In this document: positions 493 to 16,413 of the stretch, piece after piece | Layout of the letters: every line of letters begins with the position of its first letter | Position numbering within the stretch: the first letter of the stretch is position 1 | Assembly: GCA_012522535.1 (NCBI GenBank) | Contig: JAAYKF010000009.1 | Location: 1 to 35,429, forward strand | Length of the DNA stretch: 35,429 nt | Source: Bacteroidales bacterium | Lineage (GTDB): Bacteria; Bacteroidota; Bacteroidia; Bacteroidales; WCHB1-69 | Direction of reading: 5' to 3' | Translations under genes and position numbers: made by a program | The notes under the pieces: generated by a model | Told to the model about the DNA's origin: nothing | Databases searched by the model: none | The model's input: only the letters and a program-made list of their open reading frames with translations

Positions 493-804
493 ATCAATTG
501 TTTTAATTTTTGCGAATTTAAAAAACTTTTTCAACAATATAGAATTAAACAGATGGAAAACAGAAAATGTTTGTTTTATAGTAGTTAATATTGGAAAGAT
601 TTTGTCTCATATGGACTAGAAAGTTAAAATTATAGCCTACAATAAAAAATCAATTTGCACATAAAACATTTTTTGATAACTTTGAATAATAAAACTATGA
701 CGTAAATTTTAAAAATTACATTTATTGAAAAAATATAATATATAATGTATTTTTTGATGCAACGATTTTGAAAAAAACTGCGTCTAACAAATAGAGTAAT
801 TAAA
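493..804. other. Divergent intergenic region, AT-rich
   Basis: These 312 bases between lpdA (-) and the ECF sigma gene (+) contain no credible gene. They are very AT-rich and hold the predicted promoter at 654-684 for the sigma operon. The only consensus-like element for lpdA is one base off the -7 pattern (513-520 on the minus strand). A leader of about 115 bases would separate the predicted start of transcription from the sigma start codon; no riboswitch-like structure was recognised in it. Confidence 0.6.
654..684 (+). promoter_or_regulatory. Predicted Bacteroidota promoter of the ECF sigma operon
   Basis: TTTG at 654-657, a 19-base spacer, then TAACTTTG at 677-684: an exact fit to the Bacteroidota housekeeping pattern TTTG-N19-21-TAnnTTTG. 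It predicts transcription starting near 690 and a leader of roughly 115 bases. The match to the housekeeping consensus suggests the operon is read by the primary sigma factor, although an added autoregulated promoter cannot be excluded. Confidence 0.6.
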
Positions 805-1329
805 ATGCTGAGTGAAGAGAAACTCATTTCTGAATGTTTGAAAAACAATCGTGAGGCTCAAAGAGAGCTTTATGATAGGTTTTCATATAAAATGATGGGT
901 GTGTGCAGGCGATACACAAACTCTTTGGAAGATGCTGAGGATGTGATGATTGAAGGCTTCACCACAGTATTTGAAAAACTCTCAATGTATAATGGTAACG
1001 GCTCATTTGAAGGTTGGATTAGAAGAATAATGATAAATACTGCCATTACTCATTATAGGAATAATAAAAAACATCGCTTTCATGCAGAAATTGACGAATG
1101 TTATGATGTACAACAAAACCAAGAAACAGCAGTGGATATGATGGGAGCAAAGCAGATAATGAAACTTGTAGAAACTATGCCAGATGGTTATAGGATGGTT
1201 TTTAACCTGTTTGCGGTTGAAGGTTTTTCTCATGCCGAAATAGCCCAGCAGTTGGGGGTTTCGGAGGGTACTTCAAAATCGCAATATGCTAAAGCGAGAC
1301 AGTGGTTACAATGTAGATTGCAAAAATAG
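805..1329 (+). CDS. ECF-family RNA polymerase sigma factor
   Basis: A 174-aa sigma-70 family protein of the extracytoplasmic-function type. Sigma region 2 spans roughly residues 20-90 (RELYDRFSYKMMGVCRRY, then DAEDVMIEGFTTVF and FEGWIRRIMINTA), and region 4 roughly 115-170, with the helix-turn-helix signature GFSHAEIAQQLGVSEGTSKS. Length and order are normal for Bacteroidota ECF factors; regions 1 and 3 are absent as expected. The next gene begins three bases after its stop and encodes a membrane protein with an anti-sigma-like N-terminus, so this is most likely a sigma/anti-sigma pair. Its regulon cannot be read from the window. The ATG at 805 follows the predicted promoter at 654-684. Confidence 0.93.
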   Translation: MLSEEKLISECLKNNREAQRELYDRFSYKMMGVCRRYTNSLEDAEDVMIEGFTTVFEKLSMYNGNGSFEGWIRRIMINTAITHYRNNKKHRFHAEIDECYDVQQNQETAVDMMGAKQIMKLVETMPDGYRMVFNLFAVEGFSHAEIAQQLGVSEGTSKSQYAKARQWLQCRLQK

Positions 1330-1332
1330 AAG

Positions 1333-2250
1333 ATGAAAGAAGCATTTGAAAATAAATTGGTGGAGACGCTAAGGAACTATTCTGAGAAACCCTCAGATCG
1401 TTGCTGGAATACCATTTCCAACAACCTGCCACCTGTTTCACCTGCACAACCGGCAGCTGCAAGTTCCAATGCTGTTAAACAGTTTGTTGGCTCCACGGTG
1501 GGCAAAATCACCACAGCAGTTGTCTCTGTTGCCACACTGGGAACAGTAGCAACACTTTTTGTAATCAACAGTAATAATGATGAAAAAATTATAGAAAATA
1601 GTGAGAAACAGACAATAGAAATTCCTGCAGAAAAAGAAGAGCTTGTGGTGGATGATGTAGCTACATTGCCCGAGTTTGAGAACAAAGAAACTTCTGTTAA
1701 AGAGCAAAATATATCAGAAAAGAGAGAAAATAAGATTGAGGAGCCTGCAGTTTTTAAAAAAGAGGAACTAAAAGAAGTTGCCGTCAAGCCCGTAAACACA
1801 GCTATGTCAGAGAGTAGTGATAAGGGTTTTTCTGACAAAATTAAGCCCAAAAACGAAGCCAAGTCGAGTTTTGTTCCAGATGAAGAGAAAGAGAGTTACG
1901 TGGAGGAAGATTTTGTTGAAGAGAGTTTGGGTCAGGATGATGTTTTTGTAGAAGATGAGTTTATTGAAAAACCCCATTATCCAGATGTGGAGCAAATTGT
2001 GCGTCCCAATGTTTTCACCCCCAATGGCGACGGTGTAAACGATTTTCTGGTGTTTGAAAATATTGAAAAATTTCCCAAAGCACGTTTGGTGGTGGTTGAT
2101 GCCAAGGGCGAAAAGGTTTACGAACGAAATCAGTATGATAATAGTTGGGATGGCTCCAACACACCCGATGGAACATATTTCTACGTTTTAGAAATATTCA
2201 ATGGTGAAGAGCAATTCTCAATCTATGGCACAATTCACATACTCAGATAA
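1333..2250 (+). CDS. Membrane protein with anti-sigma-like N-terminus and C-terminal T9SS type-B (CHU_C) domain
   Basis: 305 aa. Residues 1-32 (FENKLVETLRNY, then W25-NTISNNL) resemble the short cytoplasmic segment of Bacteroidota anti-sigma proteins. A single hydrophobic segment follows at about 59-78 (KITTAVVSVATLGTVATLFVI). Residues 80-223 are a charged, Glu/Lys-rich low-complexity linker. Residues 224-305 form a gliding-motility-associated C-terminal domain, with the hallmarks PNVFTPNGDGVNDF, WDGSNTPDGTYFYVLE and a terminal GTIHILR. There is no N-terminal signal peptide, so it would be an inner-membrane protein with the CHU_C domain in the periplasm rather than an ordinary secreted T9SS substrate. 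It starts three bases after the ECF sigma gene. What it senses is unknown; the anti-sigma role is inferred from position and architecture. Confidence 0.8.
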   Translation: MKEAFENKLVETLRNYSEKPSDRCWNTISNNLPPVSPAQPAAASSNAVKQFVGSTVGKITTAVVSVATLGTVATLFVINSNNDEKIIENSEKQTIEIPAEKEELVVDDVATLPEFENKETSVKEQNISEKRENKIEEPAVFKKEELKEVAVKPVNTAMSESSDKGFSDKIKPKNEAKSSFVPDEEKESYVEEDFVEESLGQDDVFVEDEFIEKPHYPDVEQIVRPNVFTPNGDGVNDFLVFENIEKFPKARLVVVDAKGEKVYERNQYDNSWDGSNTPDGTYFYVLEIFNGEEQFSIYGTIHILR

Positions 2251-7116: not shown

Positions 7117-8276
7117 CTACCACTTAATAAGCTTGAAAACAATTTCGTTGTAGTTGTCCCACTCGTAAAGCACTCCAATATCTCTTTTTCCCATTTTCAC
7201 AATGTCGGAATATGCTGTATAGGCGTAGTCGTCCTTATCACCCTTGTCGATAAGAATGTTTTTGAACCATGTTTTTTCCTCATCTTTGCTAATGCGAAGA
7301 GTTAAATTATTTCTTTGATTTTTGTTTGCCGCATTGCAAAATGCTATAATTTTCTTTTTGCCACCATTGTCAACATTCAACATACTGCCCTGATTTACGG
7401 GGTCTATCAATCTGTTGTCAAAATAAGTGGTGTCCCAAGTTTGACCCCCATCGCTACTAATGGAAATAATTCGAGCCCTAATGTCGCCATTTTGGTTTCT
7501 GCTGTTGAGCATAAGCCTGTTGTTGCTCAGCTGTGCTGCGGTGGATTCGTTGCTACTGACTACATTTACAGACTCGCTAATGTGAAAAGTTTTTCCATGG
7601 TCATCTGAATAATACCCATGGCAAAATAATCCGAAAATGGTGCTATGGGTGGTCCTTGGGAGTGATTTGCAGCCACATATAGCCTGCCCTTATATTTGCC
7701 ATCTGCAAACTGCATGGCGTGTCCGGGTGTGTTGGCATATGTTCTCCAATCTTCCTCAAACTTATACTCTGGATTGGCCGAAGGAAAATTGGGTCGATGA
7801 ACCATGGTGGTGATGTTTGTAGGCTCGCTCCAGCTGTGCCCGCCGTCGGTGGAAGTGATATACCAAACCTCTCGATAGCCGTTTTTTATTCTCACATCAT
7901 ATTCGTGATTGTTGCCAGTATTGTAAAAAAGAAAAACTCTCCCTTGAGGATATTCGGGGTCTAAGAGGTCAACAACTGGTGCCGAATTGCCCGCTTGCAG
8001 TTGACCATAATCAACCAAGACTTTGAGCTTACTCCATGTCTTACCCCTGTCGCTACTTCTTTTCATCACAATATCAACATTGCCAAAATCGTCAATGTTT
8101 TCACGACCCTCGCAAAAAGCCAATAGGTCGCCATTGGGAATGGAAACTATTGCTGGTATGCGGAAAATGGCATAACCCTCGCTATTGGATTTAAAAACTG
8201 TGCTTCGCTCCTTTTGGGCACTTAGTCCCAAAACAGATAGGCTAATTATCAGAAGAACTATTTGCTTGATACTCAT
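7117..8276 (-). pseudogene. Sialidase (exo-alpha-sialidase, BNR/Asp-box), interrupted by one frameshift
   Basis: Family GH33-like sialidase, which releases terminal sialic acids from glycans. The N-terminal part reads from 8276 (MSIKQIVLLIISLSVLGLSAQ, a signal peptide) to about 7617; the C-terminal part continues in another frame to 7117. The shift sits at the GGG run at 7615-7617 (minus-strand ATGGGTATTATTC): one additional G would restore FAMG-YYSDDHGKTF and give a 386-aa protein, the normal length. The FRIPAIV arginine motif (about residues 38-44) and at least four Asp-boxes (SSDRGKTW, STDGGHSW, SDDHGKTF, SSDGGQTW) are intact. The 5' end overlaps the 3' end of the DUF4349 gene by 35 bases, so the two were co-transcribed. 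It may be a true pseudogene or a base-calling error in a homopolymer. Confidence 0.85.
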
Positions 8277-12525: not shown

Positions 12526-13173
12526 ATGAAAAAAAGAATTGAAATTGATGAAGTTGTCAGCAAAATAAAAAGCGGAATGACAATTATGGTGGGAGGTTTT
12601 TTGGGTAATGGTTCTCCTCACAAAATTATAGATGCAATAGCAAAATCTGATATTAAAGATCTTACCGTAATTTGTAACGACTCTGGTTTCCCAGATAAAG
12701 GTGTTGGAATTTTGATTGCAAATAAAAAAGTGAAAAAAGTTATTACATCTCACATTGGCACAAATCCAATTACTATCGACCAAATGAATGCCAAAGAAAC
12801 AGAAGTAGAGTTTAATCCACAAGGGACATTGGCAGAGAGAGTTAGAGCAGCAGGAGCAGGTCTTGGAGGTGTTCTTACACAAACTGGACTTGGAACTGTT
12901 GTTGCCGAAGGCAAACAAATTATAAATATCGATGGTAAAGATTATATTTTAGAAAAACCTTTAAAAGCCGATGTGGCAATTATTGCTGCTAGCTACTCCG
13001 ACGAAGAAGGAAATTTGGTTTACGAAGGTACAACACAAAATTTCAATCCAATTATGGCAACAGCTGCTGATGTTGTTATAGCCGAAGTAAATGAAGTGAA
13101 AAAAACAGGAGAAATCCCCATGGAATTAGTTCATACTCCCAAGGTTTTTGTTGACTTCATCCTTAAAAACTAA
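12526..13173 (+). CDS. atoD: Butyrate/acetoacetate CoA-transferase, subunit A
   Basis: 215 aa, close to the family's usual 217. It is the glycine-loop subunit of a two-subunit CoA-transferase that, in lysine fermentation, moves CoA from butyryl-CoA to acetoacetate. The signature VGGFLGNGSPHKIIDAI is at residues 21-37, followed by VICNDSGFPDKGVG, EFNPQGTLAERVRAAGAGLGG and the conserved EKPLKADVAIIAASYSD with EGNLVYEGTTQNFNP. The ATG at 12526 is preferred over an in-frame TTG at 12502, since MKKRIEIDEVVSKI matches the usual family start. The catalytic glutamate belongs to subunit B (AtoA), which is not in this window; the neighbours are kat, kce and kdd. Acetate-type or 3-oxoacid CoA-transferases are the alternatives. 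Confidence 0.92.
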   Translation: MKKRIEIDEVVSKIKSGMTIMVGGFLGNGSPHKIIDAIAKSDIKDLTVICNDSGFPDKGVGILIANKKVKKVITSHIGTNPITIDQMNAKETEVEFNPQGTLAERVRAAGAGLGGVLTQTGLGTVVAEGKQIINIDGKDYILEKPLKADVAIIAASYSDEEGNLVYEGTTQNFNPIMATAADVVIAEVNEVKKTGEIPMELVHTPKVFVDFILKN

Positions 13174-13195
13174 GAAAAATTAAAACTATTATATT

Positions 13196-14452
13196 ATGAA
13201 AGAAGCTCCAAAATTAAATTTGACAAACTCAATGAAAGAGTTTGAGTATGCCAAAACCCTTATCCCTGGTGCAGTGGCAGGAATCCGTCGCCCATACAAC
13301 TTCGTTGAAGGCGAATACCCAATCTATTTTGACAATGGTAAAGGCGGTAGAGTAACTGATATTGATGGAAACGAATATATCGACTATCTATGTGCTTATG
13401 GTCCAATGATTATTGGAAACCGCGAAGAAGAAATTGATAACGCAGTTATTGCTCAAATGCAAGAAAAAGGTTTCTGCTTCTCGTTGACTCAAAAATACCA
13501 AAACATGTTAGCTGAAAAGCTTAAAGAAATAGTGCCTTGTGCAGAAATGAGCTTTTTTGTTACAACAGGCTCTGATGCTACAACTTTGTCAACTCGTATA
13601 GCTCGTTCATACACACAAAAAACTAAAATTATTCGTTGCGGATACCACGGATGGCACGACTGGTGCGTGGAAGTAAAAGGTGGAATTCCTAAGAAACTTT
13701 GGGAAGATGTTCTTGAGTTTGAATACAATGATGCTGAAGGTCTAGAAAAACTTTTAGAAGAAAACAAAGATGAGGTAGCAGCTGTTATCGTTACTCCTTA
13801 TGGTCACCCATTGGCATTACCTATGGAAGATCCAAAACCTGGATTCCTTGAAAAAGTTAAAGAACTAGCTGCTAAACATAAAGCTGTTCTTATTTTTGAC
13901 GAAATTAGAACTGGATTTAGAGTTTCAATTGGTGGTGCTCAAAAATATTACGGTGTAACTCCAGATATGGCTGTTTTCGGAAAAGCTATGGCCAACGGAT
14001 ATCCTATCGGTTGTGTTACTGGTAAAACAGAAATTATGAAAGAAGTTGAGAAAAATGTTTTCGTTTCTTCAACATTCTTCCCCAATAGCTTGAGTTACAT
14101 TGCATCTTTGAAAACTATAGAAATTCTTCAAAGAGACAAAATACTAGAACAAATTTGGGAAAAAGGTGAATATTTCAATGGCGAAATTGCTAAGCTTCTT
14201 GAAAAATACGATGTTGGTGCTCGCATTTCTGGTATTCCTCCAATGATGTTCATTACTTTTGATAAAGACGAAGATGGTACATACAAAGCAAAAAGAACTG
14301 ATTTCTACACTCAACTAATTCGTAGAAAAGTATTCTTGCAACCATATCACCACGGTTATATTTGTGCACGTCATACAAAAGAAGATCTTGACTACACAAT
14401 CAACGCCATCGAAGAATCACTACAATATCTTCGCGAAAAATATTATAAATAA
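13196..14452 (+). CDS. kat: 3-aminobutyryl-CoA aminotransferase (class III, PLP)
   Basis: 418 aa, class III aminotransferase fold. TTGSDATTLSTRIAR (PLP phosphate cup), CGYHGWHDW, D235 in LIFDEIRTGFR (pyridine nitrogen) and K263 in FGKAMANGYPIG (Schiff-base lysine) are all present, so it should be active. By sequence alone it could be called a glutamate-1-semialdehyde aminomutase-like protein, but its place between atoD and kce matches the acyl-CoA beta-transaminase described from an anaerobic-digester metagenome (Perret et al. 2011, from memory), which converts 3-aminobutyryl-CoA plus 2-oxoglutarate to acetoacetyl-CoA plus glutamate and replaces the ammonia lyase Kal. No kal is present here. 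The gene is followed by a strong hairpin before kce. Function is inferred from context plus family. Confidence 0.82.
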   Translation: MKEAPKLNLTNSMKEFEYAKTLIPGAVAGIRRPYNFVEGEYPIYFDNGKGGRVTDIDGNEYIDYLCAYGPMIIGNREEEIDNAVIAQMQEKGFCFSLTQKYQNMLAEKLKEIVPCAEMSFFVTTGSDATTLSTRIARSYTQKTKIIRCGYHGWHDWCVEVKGGIPKKLWEDVLEFEYNDAEGLEKLLEENKDEVAAVIVTPYGHPLALPMEDPKPGFLEKVKELAAKHKAVLIFDEIRTGFRVSIGGAQKYYGVTPDMAVFGKAMANGYPIGCVTGKTEIMKEVEKNVFVSSTFFPNSLSYIASLKTIEILQRDKILEQIWEKGEYFNGEIAKLLEKYDVGARISGIPPMMFITFDKDEDGTYKAKRTDFYTQLIRRKVFLQPYHHGYICARHTKEDLDYTINAIEESLQYLREKYYK

Positions 14453-14467
14453 CATTTAATAAATTCT

Positions 14468-14507
14468 ACAACAGGATTTTCCTTTACGAAAATCCTGTTG
14501 TTCTTTT
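14468..14507 (+). terminator. Strong hairpin with T-tail between kat and kce (terminator or attenuator)
   Basis: A perfect 14-bp stem, 14468-14481 paired with 14488-14501 (arms begin ACAACAGGATTTTC), with a 6-base loop CTTTAC and then TCTTTT. It has the form of a rho-independent terminator, yet it lies inside an otherwise co-directional pathway cluster and no consensus promoter was seen between it and kce at 14523. Partial read-through setting a lower kce-kdd dose, or mRNA 3'-end protection, are the likely roles. Confidence 0.7.
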
Positions 14508-14522
14508 AAAATAACAGACAAA

Positions 14523-15341
14523 ATGGAAAAATTAATCATTACAGCTGCAATTTGTGGTGCTGAAGTTCTTAAAGAACACAATCCTGCAGTTCCATACACA
14601 GTAGAAGAATGTGTTAGAGAAGCAAAATCGGCCTACGATGCTGGTGCTAGCATTATTCACCTTCATGTACGTTGGGATGATGGAACTCCTACACAAGATA
14701 AAGGTCGTTTCAAAGAAATTATGGATGCTATTAAAGCAGAAATTCCAGATGTTATAATCCAACCTTCAACTGGTGGTGCCGTTGGAATGACAGACGATGA
14801 ACGTCTTCAACCTACAGAACTTAATCCCGAAATGGCTACTTTAGACTGTGGAACACTAAATTTTGGTGGCGACGAAGTATTTATGAATACTGAAAATACA
14901 ATCAAATATTTTGGCGAAAGAATGATCGAAAGAAACATTAAACCTGAGCTTGAAGTATTTGATAAAAGTATGATAGACATGGCTCTTCGCCTTCATAAAA
15001 AAGGATTTATTAAAAGCCCCATGCACTTCGATTTTGTAATGGGAGTTAATGGCGGTATCGATGGAACACTTAGAGATTTTATGTTCCTTCGTGGAAGTAT
15101 TCCTAGCGATGCTACTTATACTGTTGCCGGTGTAGGTAGATACGAATTTCCTCTTGCTGTTGCTGCCATTATCGATGGTGGTCACGTTAGAGTTGGATTC
15201 GAAGATAATGTTTACATCTCGAAAGGTGTGTTGGCAAAATCTAATGGAGAATTGGTTGAAAAAGTGGTACGTCTAGCCAAAGAATTTGGTAGAGAAATAG
15301 CCACACCAGCCGAAGCAAGAAAAATATTGAACTTAAAATAA
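14523..15341 (+). CDS. kce: 3-keto-5-aminohexanoate cleavage enzyme
   Basis: 272 aa, BKACE (DUF849) family. It condenses 5-amino-3-oxohexanoate with acetyl-CoA and cleaves it to 3-aminobutyryl-CoA and acetoacetate. The Zn-binding pair is H46 and H48 in IIHLHVRW, with the third ligand at E227 in HVRVGFEDN next to the catalytic-type D228 and R223; these agree in order and spacing with the Kce of Candidatus Cloacamonas described in the literature. QPSTGG (Ser/Thr substrate contacts) is at about residues 80-85. BKACE members act on several beta-keto acids, but the neighbouring kdd and kat make the lysine pathway the clear choice. It is 29 bases from kdd. Confidence 0.92.
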   Translation: MEKLIITAAICGAEVLKEHNPAVPYTVEECVREAKSAYDAGASIIHLHVRWDDGTPTQDKGRFKEIMDAIKAEIPDVIIQPSTGGAVGMTDDERLQPTELNPEMATLDCGTLNFGGDEVFMNTENTIKYFGERMIERNIKPELEVFDKSMIDMALRLHKKGFIKSPMHFDFVMGVNGGIDGTLRDFMFLRGSIPSDATYTVAGVGRYEFPLAVAAIIDGGHVRVGFEDNVYISKGVLAKSNGELVEKVVRLAKEFGREIATPAEARKILNLK

Positions 15342-15369
15342 AATTAAAATATTATAACTTCTTAATCTT

Positions 15370-16413
15370 ATGCAAAAAGTAGGAAATAAATATGGCTTGC
15401 ACAGAGTAATAGAGCCAGTGGGAGTATTGCCTCAACCAGCAAATAAGCTGGACAATAATATGGATGAAATTTATGACAACGAAATCCTTATTGATGTTCA
15501 AACATTAAACGTTGACTCGGCAAGTTTTACACAAATAAAAGAACAAGCAGGTGGCGATCACGAAAAAATTAAAGAAATAATGTTCGATATTGTTGCAAAA
15601 CAAGGCAAACACCGTAATCCAGTTACAGGTTCTGGTGGAATGCTTTTGGGTAAAGTTGCAAAAATTGGAGATGCACTAAAAGGAAAAATCGACCTGAAAG
15701 AGGGCGACAAAATTGCAACACTTGTGTCGCTATCTCTAACGCCACTTAGAATTGATAAAATTAAAGAAATTCGAGACGAAATTGACCAAGTTGACATAGA
15801 CGGACAAGCAATTTTGTTCGAAAGTGGAATTTATGCTAAAATACCAGATGATCTTCCAGAAGGATTGGTATTATCAGCATTAGACGTTGCAGGTGCTCCT
15901 GCACAAACAGCAAAATTGGTTAAACCTGGCGATACAGTTGTAATTATCGGTGCAGGTGGAAAATCAGGTATGCTTTGCTGCTACGAAGCAAAAAAACGTG
16001 CCGGAGTTACAGGTACTGTTATTGGAATTACTCATAGCGAAAAAAGTACAAAACGTCTTCAAGACCTTGAACTTTGCGACTATGTTTTCCCAGCAAATGC
16101 TACTCAACCAGTGGCTGTTATGGAAAAGATTTCTGAACTTACTAAAGGCGAAATGGCCGATATTTGCATCAACAACGTAAATATTCCTGATACTGAAATG
16201 ACAAGTATCTTGTGTACAAAACCATCGGGAACAATTTATTTCTTCTCTATGGCTACATCATTCACCAAAGCTGCTCTAGGTGCCGAAGGCGTTGGTAGCG
16301 ATGTGAATATGATAGTTGGTAATGGTTATGCTAAAGGTCATGCCGAAATTACTTTGCAAATTATGAGAGAAAGCGAAAAACTAAGAAAAGTATTCTTAGA
16401 ACTTTACGCTTAA
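15370..16413 (+). CDS. kdd: L-erythro-3,5-diaminohexanoate dehydrogenase
   Basis: 347 aa. It oxidises 3,5-diaminohexanoate (made from beta-lysine by the 5,6-aminomutase) to 5-amino-3-oxohexanoate with NAD(P)+, releasing ammonia, and so supplies the substrate of Kce next door. The opening GNKYGLHRVIEPVGVLPQPA and the stretch NVDSASFTQI are characteristic of the family; a Rossmann nucleotide site is at about 192-205 (DTVVIIGAGGKSGMLCCYEA). The medium-chain dehydrogenase-like fold lacks the usual catalytic-zinc motif. A terminator follows 24 bases after the stop, closing the cluster. Upstream pathway enzymes KamA and KamDE must be encoded elsewhere in the genome. Confidence 0.93.
   Translation: MQKVGNKYGLHRVIEPVGVLPQPANKLDNNMDEIYDNEILIDVQTLNVDSASFTQIKEQAGGDHEKIKEIMFDIVAKQGKHRNPVTGSGGMLLGKVAKIGDALKGKIDLKEGDKIATLVSLSLTPLRIDKIKEIRDEIDQVDIDGQAILFESGIYAKIPDDLPEGLVLSALDVAGAPAQTAKLVKPGDTVVIIGAGGKSGMLCCYEAKKRAGVTGTVIGITHSEKSTKRLQDLELCDYVFPANATQPVAVMEKISELTKGEMADICINNVNIPDTEMTSILCTKPSGTIYFFSMATSFTKAALGAEGVGSDVNMIVGNGYAKGHAEITLQIMRESEKLRKVFLELYA

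Follow-up and report, generated by a model that had tools for sequence, protein, structure and literature searches.

A conserved ECF sigma factor pair in Bacteroidales whose putative anti-sigma partner carries a type IX secretion sorting domain, and its promoter signal at cargo genes

Introduction

The window, which is the whole stretch of 35,429 nucleotides analysed here, comes from a Bacteroidales bacterium (GenBank assembly GCA_012522535.1, contig JAAYKF010000009.1). Near its start, a gene for an ECF sigma factor is followed by a gene whose product ends in a CHU_C domain, the C-terminal domain of type-B cargo of the type IX secretion system (T9SS). What is a secretion sorting domain doing on the partner of a sigma factor? 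The first-pass annotation of this DNA proposed that the domain serves as a sensor, so that sigma activity would follow the state of secretion or of the envelope. To our knowledge, it is not established how Bacteroidota fit cargo production to T9SS capacity.

The features of the locus are listed below with their main evidence.

758 to 785, plus strand: ECF-type promoter TGCAAC-N17-CGTCT, with putative autoregulation; conserved in most family loci
805 to 1329, plus strand: ECF sigma factor with sigma2 and sigma4 domains, 174 aa; Pfam, NCBIfam and PDB profile matches
1333 to 2250, plus strand: putative membrane-bound anti-sigma factor with a C-terminal T9SS type-B domain, 305 aa; architecture and place beside the sigma gene kept in all 26 homologues
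1339 to 1425, plus strand: putative sigma-binding cytoplasmic segment, residues 3-31, two helices with the motif PSxxCWxxI; alignments and joined model
1507 to 1563, plus strand: transmembrane segment, residues 59-77; hydropathy, with a counterpart in all homologues
1564 to 2004, plus strand: disordered acidic periplasmic linker of 147 residues; low pLDDT, length kept
2005 to 2247, plus strand: CHU_C / T9SS type-B C-terminal domain, residues 225-305; Pfam, NCBIfam and model pLDDT 84-97

Results

The sigma factor and the architecture of its partner

Both open reading frames were found where the annotation had placed them, with the partner 3 bases downstream of the sigma gene, and Pfam confirmed the sigma domains of the 805-1329 product (Sigma70_r2, 4.4e-13; Sigma70_r4_2, 2.8e-16). 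The same protein scored 94 bits with TIGR02937, and its profile matched AlgU, RpoE and SigW in the PDB. Since it has the sigma2 and sigma4 domains only, it belongs to the ECF (group 4) sigma factors.

The architecture that had been claimed for the 1333-2250 product, a short N-terminal segment followed by one transmembrane segment, a long linker and a C-terminal CHU_C domain, was recovered in full with Pfam, NCBIfam and hydropathy. CHU_C was the sole Pfam family in this protein (residues 225-294, 75.9 bits against a cut-off of 27), and the NCBIfam model for T9SS type B, TIGR04131, gave 40.9 bits against a cut-off of 35. With both scores above the curated cut-offs, the C-terminus has the domain of type-B cargo. 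By sequence, the domain matches the C-terminus of GhpA (9flp, 2.7e-6), and its best structural match in the PDB was weak (8glk_D, a T9SS substrate-bound complex, E 0.0095).

The partner has a single hydrophobic segment, residues 59-77, with a length of 19 residues and a mean hydropathy of 1.93. Residues 1-45 were hydrophilic, and the transmembrane segment is therefore not an N-terminal signal peptide. The claimed lack of a Sec signal peptide was thus borne out, as judged by hydropathy rather than by a dedicated predictor, and the partner is not filed as T9SS cargo on that account. Its N-terminus is predicted to lie inside. The linker, described before as about 145 residues long, was counted at 147, with 42 acidic and 20 basic residues. 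When the partner was modelled alone with AlphaFold2, the linker had low pLDDT and the transmembrane segment 59-77 was not built as a helix.

The partner is neither a FecR-type nor a class I (zinc-type, ASDI) anti-sigma factor. Pfam gave no FecR match in it, and in place of the four-helix domain of class I, two helices are predicted, with CHU_C as the only Pfam family.

A small membrane protein is encoded 52 bases past the anti-sigma gene, at 2303-2794 with a TTG start (or an ATG at 2369), and has no Pfam family above cut-off. Two further observations elsewhere in the window come from sequence only. A sialidase-like secreted protein seems to be split into two open reading frames, 7566-8276 and 7117-7512 (7117-8276 overall), possibly by a frameshift, and the gene run at 12526-16413 (a CoA-transferase subunit, an aminotransferase, a cleavage enzyme and a dehydrogenase) resembles part of a lysine fermentation pathway.

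Conservation of the pair within the family

Homologues were searched for in 60 related genomes, and full-length ones were found in many genera of one family of Bacteroidales. The 26 loci counted, from 14 genera, are those in which both genes were readable; four other fetched loci were left out, two as fragments at contig ends (L028, L029) and two as ordinary cargo (L015, L022). An ECF sigma gene lay immediately upstream in all 26 loci, at a spacing of -26 to +54 bases, and the transmembrane segment, the linker and CHU_C were retained in every homologue. The annotation had asked whether the N-terminus, the helix and CHU_C are conserved jointly beside an ECF gene, and they were so in 26 of 26. 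An arrangement kept in all of these homologous loci is far beyond chance.

In the alignment of the 26 proteins, W25 was invariant and P20 and C24 nearly so. CHU_C contained nine invariant residues (P225, N226, P230, N231, D233, Y268, N270, Y282 and G299) and reached the last residues of the protein. The linker was unconserved in sequence, with a length of 127-183 residues (median 146.5). Two traits of a membrane-bound anti-sigma factor are present, namely a conserved gene directly downstream of the sigma gene and, in all homologues, a W-motif segment with one hydrophobic segment. The partner is best filed among the membrane-bound anti-sigma factors, as a new variant.

A diverged second pair of an ECF gene and a W-motif/transmembrane/CHU_C gene was seen in the window's genome on contig C17 (L250, 1299-2390, minus strand), and a pair like it in the relative G020 on contig C188 (L272, 524-2151). 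Contig C106 (L315) of the window's genome has, at its edge, another ECF gene that resembles these and is truncated.

Modelling of the contact between sigma factor and partner

Because the sigma and partner genes share one frame, they were modelled with AlphaFold2 as a single chain, consisting of the sigma factor and partner residues 1-80, with the intervening TAG read as Gln. The partner helices 3-14 and 22-31 reached pLDDT 92-97 when joined to the sigma factor, against 74-83 for the partner alone. The comparison is one of pLDDT only, between alignments of different depth, and the joining of the chains forces proximity. The higher helix pLDDT in the joined model supports docking on the sigma factor indirectly, short of proving it. 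Furthermore, the modelled sigma part aligned with ECF factors in their anti-sigma-bound form (SigW-RsiW, Z 14.2; RpoE-NepR and SigK, 12.2; CnrH-CnrY, 11.8); this alignment covered the sigma part and not the anti-sigma helices, and the fold of the helices is thus without a match either way. From the models, we infer that the N-terminus of the partner may inhibit the sigma factor.

A constant N-terminus and a variable periplasmic module across Bacteroidota

An unbiased search with the sigma alignment gave 80 loci from Flavobacteriales, Cytophagales, Chitinophagales and Bacteroidales. In most of them, the protein encoded directly downstream had the same N-terminal W-motif and transmembrane segment, and W25 was at least 90% conserved in the phylum-wide alignment. 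The periplasmic modules of 76 partners, a set that includes the window's own and two paralogues, comprised CHU_C in 20, an OMP beta-barrel in 20 and PKD in 12; TIGR04131 matched 18 of the 76. The CHU_C label needs five changes on the sigma tree, many forks of which are weakly supported. The N-terminus is constant while the periplasmic module is swapped, which marks the periplasmic part as the sensor. A fixed sigma-binding end with interchangeable outer ends would be expected of an anti-sigma family with differing sensors. Since the sensor is a beta-barrel or disordered elsewhere, CHU_C is not essential to such pairs.

The full CHU_C architecture was also found in a cultured strain, Crocinitomix catalasitica ATCC 23190 (L047, apparent GTG start). 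Degenerate CHU_C-like partner ends without the PNxFTPN motif were observed at six loci of Bacteroidales and Bacteroidota (L060, L068, L090, L094, L104 and L110), which suggests that the sensor can diverge until it no longer works as a sorting signal. The 'anti-sigma factor' model NF052375 matched some partners at 24 bits against a cut-off of 100, and these matches were not used as evidence.

A promoter shared by the sigma gene and type-B cargo genes

In most family loci, a two-box signal with the consensus KRNAAC-N16/17-CGWCW was found upstream of the sigma gene. A scoring matrix was built from 21 sigma-gene promoters only, which were picked by eye, with two loci without a clear site and two weak ones omitted. 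The site at 758-785 was the top-scoring one of the whole window (20.8, the next being 11.5). A very similar promoter stands upstream of the sigma gene in Flavobacterium relatives, whose partners are without CHU_C.

The pattern GCAACNNTN14CGTCW had eight perfect matches in the window's genome, of which three were inside reading frames, one was the sigma gene's own and four were in other intergenic regions. The raw number of motif matches in the genome was not above that of a reversed-pattern control (6 versus 5), so the argument rests on position. Three of the four other intergenic matches stand before genes or operons that encode CHU_C proteins bearing signal sequences, on contigs C14 (1057 aa), C63 (693 aa) and C156 (a 157-aa secreted protein and a 922-aa PKD/CHU_C protein), and the fourth precedes a gene for a small secreted protein. 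The genome contains about 30 CHU_C genes; assuming about 2,000 genes in all, we estimate the probability of three in four by chance at about 1e-5.

Over the 60 genomes, a loose promoter pattern was uninformative, with fewer matches than its reversed control in most of them, and targeted orthologue searches were therefore used, in which the matrix was applied to cargo orthologues found by protein similarity. A score of at least 9.8 was obtained at 14 of 16 cargo-operon starts, the exceptions being L286 and L278, the latter from outside the family. The pattern itself had already yielded two of the 16, both in the window's genome, and the independent tally is thus 12 of 14. Random windows scored a median of -2.6 with the same matrix (95th percentile, 5.9). 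Among 23 other CHU_C-type genes of the window's genome, 21 scored 6.3 or less, the exceptions being the gene on C63, already found by the pattern, and one on C37. A third, C63-like cargo type scored at least 11 at seven loci of the family, among them the C63 gene; other family loci were without the signal, and all four loci outside the family had negative scores.

The two-gene operon on C156 (L192:570-3830, G000) and its counterparts (L275-L287) occur in 14 genomes, nearly always with the ECF signal. Its first gene encodes a small secreted protein of about 150 aa, conserved but unmatched in Pfam, and its second a large secreted protein, which has PKD and CHU_C domains in the window's genome.

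Moreover, the variants of the promoter agreed within genomes between the sigma gene and the cargo genes. GGGAAC...CGACA was found at both in G003, and TGTAACGTTTT...AAAGCGTC at both in G016 and G028. Shuffling of genomes gave P ~0.001 for this co-variation, and in a permutation at genus level none of the 120 pairings surpassed the true one by the wider measure, and at most one did by the core measure. Because the genome has paralogous ECF genes (C17, C106) whose products could use this promoter too, and the Flavobacterium promoter is similar, the assignment of the regulon rests on this co-variation. Taken as a comparison of promoters, these results support the view that the sigma factor would transcribe its own operon and a subset of CHU_C cargo genes.

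The annotation had suggested a search for the operon's own motif upstream of T9SS genes. Type-B cargo genes have it, whereas no site was present at the gldK operon (L137, window's genome), the only machinery locus checked. CHU_C cargo genes adjoining PorP/SprF genes (C129, C157, C98 and C178) were without the ECF signal, and the cargo genes that do bear the signal had no PorP/SprF match next to them. There are possibly two differently controlled classes of type-B cargo.

Discussion

A proposed secretion-coupled switch and its alternatives

We lean towards reading the pair as a secretion-coupled sigma/anti-sigma switch, in which the tethered sorting domain reports the state of the T9SS and the sigma factor drives cargo genes. 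Two cytoplasmic helices around Trp25 would hold the sigma factor in a clamp at the inner membrane. Having a contour length of about 50 nm, the tether would at full stretch be long enough to span the periplasm, and would let CHU_C reach the T9SS at the outer membrane and bind there as a cargo mimic, which could not be exported because it is anchored. Engagement of the T9SS, or displacement by accumulating cargo, may then change the anti-sigma factor, in the simplest form by proteolysis, and free the sigma factor for transcription of its own operon and of the subset of CHU_C cargo genes. The outcome would be a feedback, of either sign, which fits cargo supply to the secretion state. Slightly less likely than not is the narrower form, a T9SS counterpart of the FlgM switch, in which the tethered type-B signal competes with real cargo and occupancy of the machine gates the ECF sigma factor for cargo genes.

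The pair may be real while CHU_C is only an Ig-like module that binds a ligand or glycan, responding to envelope stress or a surface ligand without working contact to the T9SS. In the structural comparison with the PDB, CHU_C folds did resemble other Ig-like domains, and the same sigma subfamily uses beta-barrel and PKD modules in other lineages, so that its general task may be envelope sensing. However, the full CHU_C signature, with its nine invariant residues and its extreme C-terminal position, has been kept in 26 diverged proteins, and most of the apparent regulon is made up of genes whose products bear this domain as well. We therefore consider the Ig-like module unlikely, as a minority reading of some weight.

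The promoter-bearing cargo genes could also answer chiefly to a paralogue of the sigma factor (C17 or C106), or to several ECF factors with overlapping specificity, with the pair itself being real. The genome does contain such paralogues, Flavobacterium relatives share the promoter class, and overlap of ECF regulons was deemed likely in F. psychrophilum (PMC9723704). Nevertheless, the cargo promoters track the genus-specific changes of this sigma gene's own promoter, for example in the three genomes named above, and control by a paralogue is rather improbable for this reason.

It is far less probable that the partner is true T9SS cargo, whether secreted or displayed, whose signal anchor is not cleaved and whose gene stands in the sigma operon by happenstance. 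The complete type-B domain and the cargo-like low-complexity sequence would suit such a protein, but we rejected it on the missing N-terminal signal peptide, on the sigma gene that is always adjacent and on the W-motif segment before the transmembrane segment, which is common to CHU_C-free sigma partners across the phylum. Finally, draft assemblies do contain gene fusions, but an accidental fusion without regulatory meaning is ruled out by the conservation over 26 loci in 14 genera and by pairs of the same type in other Bacteroidota orders, including that of the cultured C. catalasitica.

Relation to known systems

Several known systems share features with the switch proposed here. With the secretion-coupled FlgM/FliA switch of flagella the likeness is in functional logic only, in that the substrates of a secretion system are under regulation and the anti-sigma factor is itself such a substrate or resembles one. 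FlgM is soluble and is exported by a type III system, whereas the window's protein is anchored in the membrane; the two were neither expected nor found to be related. The short two-helix anti-sigma factors represented by CnrY of CnrY/CnrH (4cxf) resemble the partner in its N-terminal segment, which is predicted as two short helices. The CnrY sensor is metal-related, whereas the periplasmic part of the window's protein is a T9SS domain, and no sequence homology was found between the two. CnrY also offers the precedent for a dual-interface clamp of two helices, and a class I anti-sigma factor lies nearby for only 6% of the ECF factors of Bacteroidetes (PMC7406223).

In FecR-type/TonB-dependent cell-surface signalling (PMC11637429), as is proposed here, the periplasmic part of an inner-membrane anti-sigma factor reads an outer-membrane machine. 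However, the window's pair is without a FecR domain and without an adjacent gene for a TonB-dependent transducer, and the machine that its anti-sigma factor reads is likely the T9SS. RsiV, which binds lysozyme (PMC4183432, PMC5014341), is similar in that the extracytoplasmic domain of an anti-sigma factor binds the signal directly and the protein is then proteolysed, as may happen here; it differs as a Gram-positive lysozyme receptor with another sensor domain.

In Porphyromonas gingivalis, PorA/PorXY/SigP (PMC7712824) is a further case in which a protein with a T9SS C-terminal domain influences a T9SS-linked ECF sigma factor. PorA is a signal-peptide-bearing surface protein of the outer membrane, which acts via the PorY kinase and PorX, and the activator of PorY upstream of SigP is undetermined in that organism (PMC7712824). 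In contrast, the window's CHU_C domain is on the putative anti-sigma factor itself at the inner membrane, and the downstream genes encode cargo, not machinery. The annotation had remarked that SigP is controlled through a different partner, which is correct, as this is PorXY (PMC7712824), while the window's sigma factor has its own adjacent partner. The window's genome encodes GldK, a PorX-like PglZ protein and PorP/SprF proteins. The PglZ domain, which is found in PorX, was present in 30 of 36 family genomes, the window's included, and the PorX route thus probably coexists with the sigma/anti-sigma pair.

In F. psychrophilum, the SM6 promoter class is likewise an ECF class that controls T9SS genes, and one ECF/anti-sigma pair is in its regulon (PMC9723704). 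That regulon includes the T9SS machinery proteins GldN and PorU (PMC9723704), whereas the window's signal was found at cargo genes, and the Flavobacterium partners found here are without CHU_C. Judged from the same promoter type, a link between the SM6 pair and the window's sigma subfamily is plausible.

Biological meaning

No description of an anti-sigma factor bearing CHU_C or a gliding-motility C-terminal domain was found in the literature searched, which left subscription journals mostly outside. What is new here is the conserved ECF promoter of the sigma gene and its recurrence at T9SS type-B cargo genes. Genes for some exported proteins appear to be activated by the switch, suggesting that their production is matched to the state of the secretion machine. 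The question can now be tested, as the promoter and the sensor domain are defined and the architecture is also found in a cultured strain, C. catalasitica ATCC 23190. A sorting domain used as an anti-sigma sensor would give a direct molecular readout of the secretion state, and would give CHU_C a role beyond sorting. If the proposal is true, Bacteroidota would have a transcription loop that is coupled to secretion and runs across both membranes, with CHU_C as its sensor domain.
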